From: Fimbriimonadaceae bacterium
GTDB taxonomy: Bacteria; Armatimonadota; Fimbriimonadia; Fimbriimonadales; Fimbriimonadaceae
NCBI GenBank assembly: GCA_019638775.1
Contig: JAHBTD010000002.1
Coordinates: 930,001-994,000 of the forward strand
DNA: 64,000 nucleotides
Direction: 5' to 3'
Of the stretch, positions 875 to 7,912 are shown one piece after another. The translations under genes and the position numbers were made by a program. A model generated the notes under the pieces. The model ran no database searches. It was given only the letters and a program-made list of their open reading frames with translations, and was not told the DNA's origin. How positions within the stretch are numbered: position 1 is the first letter of the stretch; the number at the start of each line of letters is the position of its first letter.

Positions 875-1486
875 TCAATAAAGCTCGAAAGCGAGATCGT
901 CTTTCTGCCCGTTGCACGGATCAATCAAAGGCTGAATGATCGCCCCTGTCGAGTCAAACTGCACAGCTGGGCACAGGTTGACTGGCTGGTGTGACGACCA
1001 AGCAAACTCCGGCACATTCGGATTCGCGCTCTGCGAATCGTCTTCCGAGATTTGCAGCCAATACTTGCCGAATGTCAGGAACGGCAGGTTGCCAACCGTA
1101 AGCGCTTGTTTGAACCTAAACACGCGCATGTTTTGGCAGTCGCCATCAACAAACTCCCAATCGGGCCGCAGGCAATCACGCCATACCATCGAATTCAGAT
1201 CAGGCTGACAGTTGCCGTTATCCTTGTAGATCGCATAGAACATCGGTCGCCCAAGTTGAGCGAAGTTCGTGACGGTCCCCCAGTACACAATCGTGTTGAG
1301 AGTCACATAGTGATGATTCACCATAAAGTCGTCAAGCGCCATCAGACGATAGGGCTTGGGATTCGTGCAAGAACGTACCACCGACGTCCATGCTGGAAGC
1401 GGCCGCGTCCAAGGTTGCGACCATACCTGTGACATTGCGCTCGAAGCCACCACCGCAATGCCCAAAATACACAGTAATTTTTTCAT
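875..1486 (-). CDS. Secreted protein of unknown function, paralog B
   Basis: A 203-residue paralog of the protein at 31-636, with the same signal-peptide layout and the same six cysteines. Several blocks are nearly identical (WSQPWTRPLPAW, YKDNGNCQP, PEFAWSSHQ, LAFELY). I use the ATG at 1484-1486, because the hydrophobic signal sequence then sits at the N-terminus and purine-rich GGAAGG/GGAG lies upstream. The frame stays open eight codons further but adds nothing signal-like. A strong terminator follows the gene, so it is probably transcribed alone. No family assignment. Confidence 0.72.
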   Translation of the reverse strand: MKKLLCILGIAVVASSAMSQVWSQPWTRPLPAWTSVVRSCTNPKPYRLMALDDFMVNHHYVTLNTIVYWGTVTNFAQLGRPMFYAIYKDNGNCQPDLNSMVWRDCLRPDWEFVDGDCQNMRVFRFKQALTVGNLPFLTFGKYWLQISEDDSQSANPNVPEFAWSSHQPVNLCPAVQFDSTGAIIQPLIDPCNGQKDDLAFELY

Positions 1487-1857
1487 CTCCAATTTCCTTC
1501 CAATAGCCACAGATTGTTGTGTACATTGGAATATACAGATTACAACACTAATCTACATATTATCAGGATTCTTGGCATGAATATTTATTGAGATATTTGA
1601 ATAAGAATGATCAAATATTAAACTATAGACGTTGCGTGATTCGCAAGCAAGATAATAACATAAAGAGAATTCGTTGCCATCTTCATGCTTTATGATTACT
1701 GATTAAATCAAATAAGTACAACGAATAATCTCAAACGTACGTAAAGATTTCCAGAAGTAGGAGTTCTGCAATCACGACCGCATTCCGGCAAAAAAGTCCC
1801 GAACGACGCACGCAGAACCCAGCCCAAAACGCCTATCGTTCGGGCCAGAAGAGTGGA
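1487..1857. other. AT-rich spacer with no gene
   Basis: About 370 nt, clearly richer in A and T than the rest of the window and lacking a convincing reading frame. It presumably holds the promoter of the leftward gene at 875-1486. The right end contains the terminator of the lipoprotein gene at 1858-2310. I see no repeat family here. Confidence 0.5.
1791..1844 (-). terminator. Probable terminator of the lipoprotein gene
   Basis: Perfect 9-bp inverted repeat CCCGAACGA (1798-1806) / TCGTTCGGG (1836-1844). It is followed on the minus strand by six T residues (1792-1797 read as A on plus). The 29-nt loop is long for a terminator. Confidence 0.5.
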
Positions 1858-2385: not shown

Positions 2386-2853
2386 CTAAAGCCCAGCCAG
2401 AACTTGCTGAACAGCCGCAAAATCCGGCATGTCCTTGGGCTCAGGCGTTTGCTGTGCATAACGCACAACGCCACTCTTGTCGATAACCACAACAACCCTC
2501 GCCGCCGACGGCCCCAACCCAGCCAAATCGGGCAGAACGGCGTCATAAGCGTTGATCACTTCCCTCTTATAATCGCTCAGCAAGGTTGTCGTAATTCCAC
2601 TTTGTGCGGCCCAAGCCTTCAGGGCAAAGGGAGTGTCTGCGCTGATACCAAAGACCTGAGTGTTCTCGTCGGCCTTAAACCCAAGCCCTTGGCTCACATC
2701 GCAAAGCTCTTGGGTGCACGGTCCAGAGAAAGCGGCCGGAAAGAACAGCAAAACCGTGTTCTTCTTGCCAAAGCCATCACTCAGTTTGACTTCTGTCATC
2801 TCCGAATTCTTAAGCACAAAATCGGGGGCGGGATCTCCTATATTTAGCGGCAT
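2386..2853 (-). CDS. Peroxiredoxin (AhpC/TSA family, BCP/AhpE-like)
   Basis: A 155-residue thioredoxin-fold peroxidase that reduces hydrogen peroxide or organic peroxides in the cytoplasm. The N-terminus GDPAPDFVLKN is the usual peroxiredoxin start. The active-site loop FFPAAFSGPCTQELC gives Cys46 as the peroxidatic cysteine. Cys51, five residues on, is placed like the resolving cysteine of atypical two-Cys BCP enzymes. Length is normal and there is no signal peptide. The ATG at 2851-2853 has AGGAG about 10 nt upstream. It is divergent from the MocR-type gene at 2983, and the short shared spacer could hold a regulatory site for both. Confidence 0.88.
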   Translation of the reverse strand: MPLNIGDPAPDFVLKNSEMTEVKLSDGFGKKNTVLLFFPAAFSGPCTQELCDVSQGLGFKADENTQVFGISADTPFALKAWAAQSGITTTLLSDYKREVINAYDAVLPDLAGLGPSAARVVVVIDKSGVVRYAQQTPEPKDMPDFAAVQQVLAGL

Positions 2854-2982
2854 TTGAATCTACTCCTATGAATTCCTCAGTCATACCCGCTCGCTCGGCT
2901 TAGCCGCTTGTGCGTGGTTCACGTAGTTTCGCATAACAGCGGAACTTAGCGTATCGACCCCACGGTACTCACCTACAACTGT

Positions 2983-4455
2983 GTGTGGAAGTGTTATGTG
3001 TTGTTGAAAGAGGGAATAGAACCAGATTTTGAAGTGAGGATCGACCCTGATTCTCGCGAACCTGTTTACCGCCAGATCGCCGAGCAGCTCAAATCGAAGA
3101 TAATCGAAGGAGTCATCCTGCCCGGACAATCGCTTCCGACGGTACGCCAGCTCGCCGACCGCCTCAGCGTCTCGAACTTTACCGTCCTGCATGCCTACGG
3201 TCTTCTCCAACAGCAGAACCTGATCGAAAGCACGATCGGACGCGGCACCGTCGTAAGCAAGCGGGCCTTCCGCGAGCAAGGCGAGTTCCTCATCCGGCAG
3301 CTCGCCCACTCCGGCCCCTTCAACGCTTTCGAAGACCTCAGCGAGGCCGCCGGAATTCGGTCACTCGCCACGGCCTGCCCCGATCCTGCCCTGTTCCACG
3401 CTGACGAGTTCTGGGCCGAACTCTATGCGCTTGGAAAGGGTTCGCATTGGCAGATGTACTATTCGCCACCCCATGGCGAACCCGAGCTCATCTCCGCAGT
3501 ACAGAACCTGCTGCGCAAAGATCGAATCATCGCGACACCATCGCACGTGGTCATCACCAGCGGCTCGACCCACGCCATGACGCTTGCCGTCGATGTCGTC
3601 TGCGATCCAGGGGACACCGTTCTCGTCGAATCTCCATCCTTCCTCGGGTCAGAATCCTTCTTCGCCCACCGTCGCGTACGCCCGATTCCCGTACCAAGAA
3701 CGGCAGAAGGGTTCGATATCGACGCAATTCTTGCCCTCATCAAAAAGCACCGTCCCAAATGCTTTATCCTAAGCCCCTCGTATTCGGCGCCCACGGGCTA
3801 TCAGCTCAGCTACGAACAGCGGGAAGCGATTGCCCAGATCGCAAACGACCAGCAGATCTTCGTTCTCGAAAACGAAAGCTTCTCTCGAATCCGCTACGAT
3901 GGCGACGCATTGCCGCCGATCACCGCGTTCGGAAGAGGCAGCGGGCGGGTGATCCATATCGGCTCATTCTCCTACATGCTCACACCAGGACTTCGGCTGG
4001 GATACATCGCCTCGCAAATCAACATTTCAAAGAGAATCGCCGACAGGCTGCGCGCCCAACAGCTCTCGCTTTGTCGATTCACCCAGCTCGCGACAGCCTC
4101 ATATCTGAAAAACGGTTCCTTGGACACCCACCTCCAGCGAGTGTTGCCCAAATACAGGCTTCGCAGGGACGCCATGCTGCAAGCGCTCGAAACATCCATG
4201 CCTGCCGGAACGCAGTGGTCATGGCCAGAAGGTGGCTTTAGCACTTGGGTTGAGCTTCCAGCTGGACGAGACTACAGCAAGCTCTATCAGCAGGCCGTCG
4301 AGCACGGCACCGCTTTCGCCGGCGGAGGTTTGTTCTTGGGTTGTCACGAAAAAGAGCGATGCATGAGGCTTACTTTTGGCATGCAATCGACCAGCGCCAT
4401 CCAAGAAGCTGTTCGGATTCTCGGCAAGCTTGTCGAAAGTTCACCAACAACGTAG
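2983..4455 (+). CDS. MocR-type (GntR-HTH plus aminotransferase-fold) regulator lacking PLP-binding residues
   Basis: About 490 residues. An N-terminal GntR winged helix (roughly residues 25-95; PVYRQIAEQLKSKI, PTVRQLADRLSVS) is fused to a full-length class I aminotransferase fold, the MocR/GabR layout. In GabR the second domain binds PLP on a lysine. Here the matching positions are replaced: the Schiff-base Lys in SFSK is Tyr331 (GSFSYMLTPG), the Asp of EDDY is Asn297 and its Tyr is Ser299 (ENES), and the Asn of NPTG is Ala269 (SAPTG). The carboxylate-binding Arg is kept (Arg462, MRLTFG). It probably acts as a transcription factor that senses something other than PLP. The start is uncertain: GTG at 2983, or GTG/TTG at 2998-3004. 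Confidence 0.85.
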   Translation: MWKCYVLLKEGIEPDFEVRIDPDSREPVYRQIAEQLKSKIIEGVILPGQSLPTVRQLADRLSVSNFTVLHAYGLLQQQNLIESTIGRGTVVSKRAFREQGEFLIRQLAHSGPFNAFEDLSEAAGIRSLATACPDPALFHADEFWAELYALGKGSHWQMYYSPPHGEPELISAVQNLLRKDRIIATPSHVVITSGSTHAMTLAVDVVCDPGDTVLVESPSFLGSESFFAHRRVRPIPVPRTAEGFDIDAILALIKKHRPKCFILSPSYSAPTGYQLSYEQREAIAQIANDQQIFVLENESFSRIRYDGDALPPITAFGRGSGRVIHIGSFSYMLTPGLRLGYIASQINISKRIADRLRAQQLSLCRFTQLATASYLKNGSLDTHLQRVLPKYRLRRDAMLQALETSMPAGTQWSWPEGGFSTWVELPAGRDYSKLYQQAVEHGTAFAGGGLFLGCHEKERCMRLTFGMQSTSAIQEAVRILGKLVESSPTT

Positions 4456-4573: not shown

Positions 4574-7500
4574 ATGATGAAACTCTTAGGAAGATTCCGC
4601 ATGAACTCCCTGAAAGCGTTCTTCGTCTTGATGGCATCCATGCTCGGGATGCTCCTGCCGACCAAGGCTTTTGCCTCCGGCGGAGAAGACGTCACGCTGA
4701 ATTTTGCGAGTTCAGACCTCATTTACCTCTATGTGTCGCTGTTCTTTGGCGCACTAGCTGTCTTATGCGCTTGGTTCGTTGGAAAGCAAGTCATGGCGCA
4801 GTCGCCTGGCGACGAAAAGATGCAGAGCGTTGGCTTAGCCATCCGGGAGGGCGCACTCGCCTACCTGAAGCAGCAAGTCAAGACGATGCTCTACTTCGTC
4901 GGAGCTCTTGCGCTTGTGCTCGGCGTCTACTACAGCCAGACCTACAGCGCTGCTATGGGTATTGCCATTGCAGTCTGTTTTATGGCTGGTGTTGGTGCAT
5001 CATATGGCGCTGGCTACATCGGCATGCTCATGGCCGTCAACGGCAACATGCGCACCGCTTCGGCAGCTCTAACCAGCTACAAGCGTGCTCTTGAAGTCGC
5101 ATTCCGCTCAGGAGCGGTGGCGGGCTTGGTCACGGTCGGTATGGGCTTGATCGGTGCTACGCTGATCTTCCTCATCGCCAAGGGCGACGCCATGAAGCTG
5201 CTGGTCGGCTTTGGTTTTGGAGGATCGCTCGCCGCGCTCTTTATGCGTGTTGGTGGAGGCATCTTCACAAAGGCCGCCGACGTTGGCGCTGACCTCGTAG
5301 GTAAGGTCGAAGCCGGTATCCCCGAAGACGACCCCCGCAACCCCGCCGTTATCGCCGACAACGTTGGTGACAACGTCGGTGACTGCGCGGGAATGGCCGC
5401 CGACATCTTCGAATCTTACGAAGTCACACTCGTCGCTGCAATCGTTCTCGGTGCTGCAACTGCCGCAATCTTCGATCAGACGACCTGGATGAAGCTCATC
5501 CTCTTCGCTCTCATGGCCCGTGGCGTTGGCATCATTGCCTCAATCATCGGCATCTTCATGGTGAAGGGATCGGACAACGTCGACGACGACCCGCTCAAGG
5601 CTATCCGCCGTGGCTTCACAGGCTCTGCCATCATTGCTGGAGTCGCCACCCTCGTGCTCGCCTTCTTTATGATGGGCGGCATGTCGATGATTAACAAGAA
5701 CATGAAGCCGATCGGCACCGACCGTCTCGTGTCGCTTTCTCACTACGAGAAAGAAGAGCACAAGGTCGTTGTCCAGGTTCGTGAAGAAGTTGCAAAGTCT
5801 AAAGGCATCCCCTCTTGGCAGATCAAACCGGAAGATATCAAGGACGATCCGCGCATCAAGGCGTTGAAGTTCGACGAGGGCCAACCCGGAGATCAGATGC
5901 TCCAGCAAGCGCTCATGCCGGACAACATGAGGCCCAAGGAAGTTGTCCTTCAAGGCTATAAGAGAATCGATCGGAGCGACAAGAATTCCGTTCTCTATAA
6001 GTACTCCACGATGAAGCCGGCAGAGCCGGGCGATTCGCCCACTGCCCCTCAGTACATCACGCTTGGCGACTTCTTCGATACGGAGAAAGAAGTCGACAGA
6101 GACGGTAAGAAGATCCTCGAAAAGGTAAACGAGATTGTCGTCTTCAAAATCAACTTCAGCCAACCCGAGCAAAAGGGCCCCGACGGTCAAACCGTTGCCG
6201 CCACGAGCAGGGTGATCTGGATTGCTCTTCCCAAGAACTTCCTTCTTGAGCAGAAGAAGATGATGGAGGAGAACAAACTCGGCTCCATCGAGATCCTACA
6301 CGAGGCTCCGCTGGCGTTCTACGCGACCGATGATGGCTCGCTTGCCGCTGGCATTGAAGCGCCGGTAGGGACTGGTCCTCAGCAGGTGGAATTCCCCCAT
6401 CGTGTGATCGTCCAACTGCCCTCCTACTACAAGTACTCGCCAGACGAGATGGCGGGATTTGCAAAGGAGATGCAGGAAGGGAAAATCCAAAGTCTGCCCC
6501 AACAAAACATCGAACTGGGTCACGTTGACCACCAGGTTGTCCCGTGGTATCTGTTCGCGTTTGCGATCATCATCGGCATCTTGATGGCGTTCGCTTTCGA
6601 AGCGATGACCGACTATTACGTTTCGACGCACAAGAAGCCCGTTCAGGAAGTTGCCGGTGTTGCAACTGCCGGTCCGGCTCCGATGATCATCTCCGGATTT
6701 GCACTCGCTTGTGAATCCAGCGTGTTCTCGGTGCTTGCTATCGTCGTCGCGCTCATCGTTCCGATGTTCCTCTTCCCGCCTGCGCTGTACGGCGGCCTGA
6801 TCTTGAGCTTCTACGGAATCGCTCTCGTCGGCCTCGGATTGCTCACCACCACAGGATTCATCCTCGCGATGGACACCTTTGGACCCATCTCAGACAACGC
6901 TCAGGGCGTCTTTGAGATGTCGGGAGCAGGTCATACAAGTCCAGAAGGTGCAAAAGCAGTTCAGCGGCTGGACGCGGCTGGCAACACAACCAAGGCCCTC
7001 ACCAAGGGCTTTGCCATCGCCACCGCGGTGGTTGCGGCGGTCGCCCTGTTCCACTCGTACATCGAGTCGGCCAAGCTCACAGGAATTGGCCTTCCACTCG
7101 ACGTACCCGCGATCTTCCTTGGATTTATGATCGGTGGAGCTGCGCCGTTCCTCTTCGCTGCGTTCTCGATCAACGCAGTAGGTCGCGCTGCATTCGAACT
7201 GATCAACGAAGTTCGTCGGCAGTTCCGCAACGACCCAGGCATCATGGCGGGCACAAGCAAGCCGAACTACGGCAGCTGTGTGGCTATCGTCACAAAGGCT
7301 GCTCAGACAGAGCTGCTTGGACCGGGCGTACTCGCCATTGCACTTCCGCTCGCAACCGCGTTTGGATTTGCAATGTTGCCCGGTGGTCGAACCACCATCG
7401 GTGGAGTCGAATACAACCTCAGCGGCGCGCAGGCCCTTGGTGGCTTCCTCGCCGGTTCAATCCTCTCCGGTCAGCTTCTCGCCGTTATGCTTGCCAACTC

Positions 7501-7912
7501 AGGCGGAATTTGGGATAACGCAAAGAAGGTCATTGAGGATGGACTTCACGGAGGAAAGGGCACAGAAGCTCACAAGGCTGCTGTTGTCTGCGACACCGTT
7601 GGCGACCCATTCAAGGATACGGCTGGTCCGGCCCTGAACCCGCTCATCAAGGTCATGAACCTTGTGGCGCTTCTGTTGGCCCCGACGATCATCCTTCCCT
7701 ACGACTGGAAGGTCCTGGCAACCATTACAACCCTGTGTCTTGCCGCGCTCGCGTTCTCGATCTGGTGGTCGAAGCGAGCAAGCATGCTGACAGGAATGGA
7801 AGCAGCCGTCGCCCAAGCTCCCGCCGCAGGTAAGCGCCCGCTCGATGCACCCGCACCGAAAAAGCGCATCACCGTCGACGACGATGAGTCGGAAGGTGAG
7901 AAGGTCGAATAG
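4574..7912 (+). CDS. hppA: Membrane-bound proton-translocating pyrophosphatase with a large inserted domain
   Basis: Integral membrane pyrophosphatase that couples PPi hydrolysis to ion pumping. The substrate motif DVGADLVGKVE begins at residue 236 and is followed by DNVGDNVGDCAGMAADIFESY. The C-terminal half has NSGGIWDNAKK and CDTVGDPFKDTAGPALN. GNTTKA, with Lys807, marks the K+-independent subclass, which usually pumps H+. At about 1112 residues it is far longer than the usual 650-800. The excess is a hydrophilic block of roughly 280 residues (about 5690-6535) in the loop between predicted helices 8 and 9, which should face outside. The N-terminus adds a signal-like helix, and the C-terminal tail is acidic. 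I chose the first ATG after the GAGGGGGG run; ATG at 4601 is an alternative. Confidence 0.93.
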   Translation: MMKLLGRFRMNSLKAFFVLMASMLGMLLPTKAFASGGEDVTLNFASSDLIYLYVSLFFGALAVLCAWFVGKQVMAQSPGDEKMQSVGLAIREGALAYLKQQVKTMLYFVGALALVLGVYYSQTYSAAMGIAIAVCFMAGVGASYGAGYIGMLMAVNGNMRTASAALTSYKRALEVAFRSGAVAGLVTVGMGLIGATLIFLIAKGDAMKLLVGFGFGGSLAALFMRVGGGIFTKAADVGADLVGKVEAGIPEDDPRNPAVIADNVGDNVGDCAGMAADIFESYEVTLVAAIVLGAATAAIFDQTTWMKLILFALMARGVGIIASIIGIFMVKGSDNVDDDPLKAIRRGFTGSAIIAGVATLVLAFFMMGGMSMINKNMKPIGTDRLVSLSHYEKEEHKVVVQVREEVAKSKGIPSWQIKPEDIKDDPRIKALKFDEGQPGDQMLQQALMPDNMRPKEVVLQGYKRIDRSDKNSVLYKYSTMKPAEPGDSPTAPQYITLGDFFDTEKEVDRDGKKILEKVNEIVVFKINFSQPEQKGPDGQTVAATSRVIWIALPKNFLLEQKKMMEENKLGSIEILHEAPLAFYATDDGSLAAGIEAPVGTGPQQVEFPHRVIVQLPSYYKYSPDEMAGFAKEMQEGKIQSLPQQNIELGHVDHQVVPWYLFAFAIIIGILMAFAFEAMTDYYVSTHKKPVQEVAGVATAGPAPMIISGFALACESSVFSVLAIVVALIVPMFLFPPALYGGLILSFYGIALVGLGLLTTTGFILAMDTFGPISDNAQGVFEMSGAGHTSPEGAKAVQRLDAAGNTTKALTKGFAIATAVVAAVALFHSYIESAKLTGIGLPLDVPAIFLGFMIGGAAPFLFAAFSINAVGRAAFELINEVRRQFRNDPGIMAGTSKPNYGSCVAIVTKAAQTELLGPGVLAIALPLATAFGFAMLPGGRTTIGGVEYNLSGAQALGGFLAGSILSGQLLAVMLANSGGIWDNAKKVIEDGLHGGKGTEAHKAAVVCDTVGDPFKDTAGPALNPLIKVMNLVALLLAPTIILPYDWKVLATITTLCLAALAFSIWWSKRASMLTGMEAAVAQAPAAGKRPLDAPAPKKRITVDDDESEGEKVE

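Follow-up and report, generated by a model that had tools for sequence, protein, structure and literature searches.

A MocR-type regulator of Fimbriimonadaceae from a clade without the PLP-binding lysine

The protein encoded at 2983–4455 of the window (the whole stretch of 64,000 nucleotides of contig JAHBTD010000002.1 that was analysed) is best read, from its sequence, as a PLP-independent local regulator of the MocR type. Dependence on PLP is part of how MocR proteins are defined and named, and this one belongs to a clade of ten in which the lysine that holds the cofactor is missing. The full reading—a factor of MocR architecture from a clade without covalent PLP, which would bind direct repeats as a dimer and carry a remodelled ligand pocket—is given here a probability of about 0.5. 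The gene and the residues on which this reading depends are located in the window as follows.

2983..4455, + strand: regulator of MocR architecture that lacks the PLP lysine, 490 aa when read from GTG 2983
3067..3255, + strand: GntR winged-helix DNA-binding domain, residues 29–91 (PF00392, E 2.4e-15)
3313..3405, + strand: clade-specific motif of the linker and N-terminal arm, residues 111–141, with G111, P112, E117 and R126 invariant in 10/10
3448..3462, + strand: clade-specific W156 and Y159, then Y160 at the AAT Tyr70* position (clade alignment)
3787..3789, + strand: Ala269 (GCG) at the Asn of NPxG in PLP enzymes (codon check, alignment)
3871..3882, + strand: Asn297-Glu298-Ser299-Phe300 replacing Asp-Asp-x-Tyr (codon check, alignment)
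3973..3975, + strand: Tyr331 (TAC) at the position of the Schiff-base lysine (codon check, alignment)
3994..3996, + strand: Arg338 (CGG) at the phosphate-binding Arg position, retained in 7/10 clade members
4366..4368, + strand: Arg462 (AGG) at the substrate-carboxylate Arg position, retained in 10/10 clade members

The reading frame has an alternative start at GTG 2998, which is preceded by GGAAG. Both domains of the MocR subfamily are present, namely the GntR winged helix and a fold-type I aminotransferase domain (class I/II, Aminotran_1_2 PF00155, residues 160–478, E 1.9e-26), while the aldimine lysine and the pyridine aspartate are absent. The protein scores 260.5 bits against the NCBIfam PdxR equivalog NF052282 and 108 bits against the GabR model NF052285, below the curated cut-offs of 320 and 600, respectively. 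Its alignment with LysN/KAT II-type aminotransferases of solved structure runs unbroken across the pocket: HIGSFSYMLTPGLRLG is aligned to YLGTFSKILAPGFRIG of 1wst, VLENESFSRIRY to VVEDDPYGELRY of 1x0m, and PSYSAPTG to PSFQNPTG of 2egy.

The sequence-only reading had listed four substituted PLP contacts, of which Tyr331, Asn297 (AAC 3871–3873, at the position of the pyridine-nitrogen Asp) and Ala269 stand at the codon level. The fourth, Ser299, had to be replaced by its neighbour. It occupies the position of GabR Tyr281, a member of the aromatic triplet by which the GabR subgroup is distinguished (PMC6677901), and it is no diagnostic loss, since the PLP-competent homologues compared have V, I, A or P there; the tyrosine shared by aminotransferases in general (AAT Tyr225) is matched in the alignment by Phe300. 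The retention of the substrate-carboxylate Arg462, also claimed in that reading, was borne out, and it extends to the whole clade.

An AlphaFold2 model built from five sequences reached a mean pLDDT of 74 and a pTM of 0.67, with low-confidence stretches at residues 94–112, 138–141, 152–163 (which holds W156 and Y159) and 448–457. Its top PDB matches by Foldseek and VIA-align are aminotransferases of the KAT II/LysN type (Z 37–39; best 38.7, LysN 37.9), with GabR next at Z 35, so the overall aminotransferase fold is, according to this model, retained in the window protein; the model does not fix the geometry of the pocket. The same group of aminotransferases (2egy, 3aov, 1x0m) also offers the best sequence match of the sensor domain, at 28–30% identity, although these proteins are PLP enzymes with an intact lysine and no winged helix.

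A family search of 85 Fimbriimonadaceae genomes returned 20 homologues besides the query. The lysine is also missing in nine of them (L005–L010, L017, L023, and L024), and the remaining eleven hold SFSK or SVSK, NPLG or NPMG, and EDDxY. When a profile built from the ten clade proteins was run against 291 genomes of the phylum, the E-values fell from 1e-175 to 1e-84 with none between, and no clade member was found outside Fimbriimonadaceae (Armatimonadota). The ten proteins are distributed over eight genomes of this family (G000, G002, G007, G012, G020, G080, G081, and G083), of which G080 and G081 hold two copies. Lys and Asn are both missing in 10/10 clade proteins and in 0/24 of the other homologues compared from the phylum, so their loss is beyond chance or sequencing error. 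In a maximum-likelihood tree of 34 proteins the ten lie on one branch with a support of 100/99, and the split persists with an SH-aLRT of 99 when five plasmid-borne MocR proteins are added; these trees are unrooted, and the term clade presumes a root on the PLP-competent side, consistent with ancestral PLP binding. No full-length relatives outside Armatimonadota appeared in a five-row scan of 84,980 species genomes; since known members also escaped its two peptide patterns, absence elsewhere is weak evidence.

The best plasmid-borne relative among the five plasmid matches read is PLP-competent. The plasmid MocR protein of Allomeiothermus silvanus (L140, WP_013159632) is 36% identical to the window protein over 96% of its length and also has an Arg at the R126 position (GVRNLALASPDPHLF), but it holds intact SFSK, NPTG and EDDxY motifs where the clade has lost Lys and Asn; its gene sits among genes for an amino-acid permease, a glutamine-synthetase-like protein and an aldehyde dehydrogenase. 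Homologues with the intact set, which the sequence-only reading had named as evidence against itself, exist only outside the clade, as expected for the ancestral state, and none was found inside it.

The pocket contacts have not been lost evenly. Lys331 and Asn269 are gone in all ten clade proteins, Tyr300 in nine, Asp297 in seven, Arg338 in three (L017, L023, and L024) and Arg462 in none; the second aspartate (298) is lost in 8/10, compared with 0/24 of the others. The four substitutions are therefore only partly conserved together: the loss of Lys and Asn is universal in the clade, whereas the remaining ones are not strictly linked to it, with Asp297 preserved in L006, L007, and L010, and Tyr300 in L007. 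The lysine position is occupied by Y, S, G, H, N, T or V, and therefore no single replacement residue has been selected. The simplest reading of these alignments is that Lys and Asn were lost in the common ancestor, and that the other contacts would have been eroded later and unequally. PLP binding through another lysine was rejected, as no lysine column of the sensor domain is conserved in the clade, the best one reaching 5/10. On the other hand, six residues are fixed inside the clade and not outside it: G111, P112, and E117 in the linker and N-terminal arm, together with R126, W156, and Y159. The alignment places R126 in the SLAGGLP segment, and W156 and Y159 immediately before the Tyr70* position; both segments presumably lie close to the pocket on its substrate side, as in aminotransferases of this fold.

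Low dN/dS values (Nei-Gojobori) of 0.107 for L008/L009 and 0.028 for L023/L024 (the latter with a saturated dS of 2.3), together with a sensor domain almost as constrained as the winged helix in both pairs, indicate that the genes of the clade are working genes under purifying selection. A decaying gene or a sequencing artefact is consequently a very improbable explanation. MocR genes can apparently decay in the window genome, which has a second MocR-like protein split over overlapping open reading frames (L108, contig C6, 7837–8736 and 8699–9259) with an intact SFSKS, in a small contig that may be foreign if the gene is not simply broken. However, decay of the lysine-less gene is contradicted by intact reading frames in eight genomes, their grouping into one clade and a dN/dS far below 1.

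All ten clade loci show the gene closely linked to a divergent or upstream gene. In the window, this neighbour and the candidate operator in the common spacer are the following.

2386..2853, − strand: AhpC/TSA peroxiredoxin, divergent, across a common spacer of 129 bp; candidate local target
2940..2974, + strand: candidate operator, imperfect direct repeat CGGAACTTAGCG (2940–2951) / CGGTACTCACCT (2963–2974), 23-bp period, 8/12 identical

The peroxiredoxin, proposed as a target by the sequence-only reading, is plausible in that role from the common spacer and its weak repeats, but the neighbour is not conserved, its place in relatives being taken by a DUF1579-like or a PEP-CTERM gene. Nothing was found in support of the downstream pyrophosphatase, the other target then proposed. 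Its reading frame (4574–7912, + strand; ~1112 aa) is an H+-pyrophosphatase that seems to carry a large hydrophilic insert in the middle of the protein compared with the usual enzyme, because PF03030 matches it in two stretches, the better one covering residues 656–1035. Further upstream, the window holds two neighbouring genes, at 31–636 and 875–1510 (both − strand), whose products have signal-peptide-like starts and at most a weak DUF7901 match, and are 69% identical, which points to a tandem duplication.

In G002, G007, G012, and G020, the clade gene is divergent from a gene for a small protein with a DFW(L/V)GxW motif, apparently secreted in most cases. These DUF1579-like partners are located at:

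L101, 8959–9441: DUF1579-like DFW(L/V)GxW protein, divergent from a lysine-less MocR gene
L056, 5604–6203: the same
L058, 9441–9986: the same
L055, 8933–9406: the same

One of the four is reached by the Pfam DUF1579 model and the other three are not. Since genomes hold only zero to three DUF1579-like genes each (found in 30 of the 85), the occurrence of such an adjacent pair in each of four genomes is not due to chance. G020 carries two such genes in tandem, the one of the window genome is unlinked to the regulator (G000:C2:12616), and in genomes without the clade they do not adjoin a MocR gene. In the genus to which G080, G081, and G083 belong, 5/5 copies of the clade gene lie directly downstream of a co-oriented PEP-CTERM beta-propeller gene (L057 8929–9903; also L102, L103, L104, and L105), and these PEP-CTERM genes weakly resemble the ScyE/ScyF family. 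A common target across the clade was thus not found, the neighbours being of three kinds (DUF1579-like, PEP-CTERM, and peroxiredoxin), and no common signal is suggested, because the neighbouring gene varies by lineage. None of the three kinds suggests amino-acid catabolism, the usual business of MocR regulators.

Direct repeats with a period of 22–23 bp are found in the spacers of G002 (ATCAAATAGAAC/ATCATATAGAAC), G012 (TCTAACAAT twice), G020 (CATAACACAA/CATAACAGAA) and, in a weaker form, G007 (GGACAATG/GGACTAAG), as well as upstream of the PEP-CTERM gene of G080 (AAATTGTCC twice). They are clear in G002, G012, and G020 and weak in the window, where the repeat is not significant alone (p 0.6–0.8), and where its spacing is that of the related promoters and its position just upstream of the start. 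The region of G080 was picked after its repeat had been spotted by eye, so that the figures to rely on are those obtained when it is left out: in a scan of spacings from 10 to 40, the four DUF1579 loci, with the window excluded, peak at 22/23, and their observed sum was reached by 0 or 1 of 2000 dinucleotide shuffles, depending on word length, and in 1–8 of 3000 draws of an intergenic control from the same and related loci. The tandem pattern of the window occurs once in its genome, which carries little weight as the pattern was derived from that site. The 22-bp repeats are missing from the most diverged subgroup (L017, L023, and L024), no inverted repeats above shuffles were detected in the clade spacers, and scans for promoters and terminators likewise did not rise above shuffles. 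In the MocR operators described in the literature, the direct repeats are separated by two or three helical turns (PMC5320631). Several clade promoters would accordingly contain direct repeats of operator type, with a candidate in the window that is weak alone.

From these data and MocR biology, the protein is expected to dimerise via its aminotransferase-fold domain and to bind its own promoter region at two half-sites that face the same way and are separated by two helical turns, from where it would repress its own gene and/or the neighbouring divergent gene, here that of the peroxiredoxin. This proposed binding of direct repeats by a dimer of the MocR type is the better-supported half of the mechanism. 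In its least-supported half, the old cofactor pocket would have been remodelled to bind a small ligand non-covalently, probably a carboxylate that Arg462 holds, and this ligand would alter DNA binding without aldimine chemistry. For the lineage as a whole, it is put forward tentatively, at somewhat less than even odds, that sensing through a covalent cofactor gave way to the direct recognition of a small carboxylate, in an aldimine-free pocket with the residue set R126, W156, Y159, and R462.

The purifying selection on the sensor domain could alternatively act for dimerisation alone. The protein would then be a ligand-independent repressor, the aminotransferase-fold domain being only a scaffold that places two winged helices on direct repeats, and regulation would depend on protein level or other factors. 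This account fits the EnuR Lys302His mutant, which is unable to hold PLP and represses constitutively (PMC8739950), as well as apo-PdxR, which still binds direct repeats (PMC5320631), and the free drift of pocket contacts between clade members is in line with it. It is nevertheless judged less likely, as Arg462 in 10/10 proteins and the new invariants R126, W156, and Y159 in pocket-forming segments seem beyond the needs of a scaffold. The clade ancestor may have passed through a permanent-repressor state like that of the EnuR mutant, and its descendants would then either have kept that state, with the domain as a scaffold, or have gained non-covalent sensing; the latter is moderately favoured by the retention of Arg462 and by the invariants newly fixed on the pocket side.

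Less probable still is that the protein binds a B6 vitamer non-covalently, be it PMP, PLP or an adduct of PLP and an amino acid formed beforehand. Lysine-less fold-type I enzymes provide a precedent, as ColD and E1 dehydrase have a His in place of the Lys and use PMP. L008 and L009 also have a His at this position, and the clade retains the phosphate-binding Arg338 in 7/10 proteins and the pyridine Asp in 3/10. However, the window protein has lost Asp, Asn, and Tyr as well as Lys, and in L017, L023, and L024 even Arg338 is gone.

Much of the MocR/GabR subfamily (GabR, PdxR, EnuR, and PtsJ) is recognisable in these proteins: the winged helix and fold-type I aminotransferase domain, the divergent gene layout and probably, as in several members, direct repeats two turns apart. 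They differ in that a whole clade is without the PLP-site Lys and Asn, most of it also without Asp and Tyr, and has invariant residues of its own, whereas Asp279 and Lys312 are conserved across all MocR clusters surveyed (PMC6677901). The likeness to EnuR Lys302His, a MocR protein without the PLP lysine that still represses, likewise has its limits, as the mutation is an engineered loss of induction, and the loss in the clade is natural, ancestral to it and under selection. The literature searched, in which few subscription journals were covered, yielded no description of a MocR clade that lacks the lysine in nature, and independent losses of the lysine may have occurred outside the phylum, where surveys were limited.

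A whole lineage thus seems to have rebuilt the regulator to work without the covalent vitamin-B6 cofactor. As a warning for annotation, such proteins can be wrongly labelled "PLP-dependent aminotransferase family protein". A clade that lacks the lysine in nature and is maintained by selection sets the DNA-binding mechanics of MocR regulators apart from their cofactor chemistry, and allows one to ask what the role of the aminotransferase fold is once PLP is gone.
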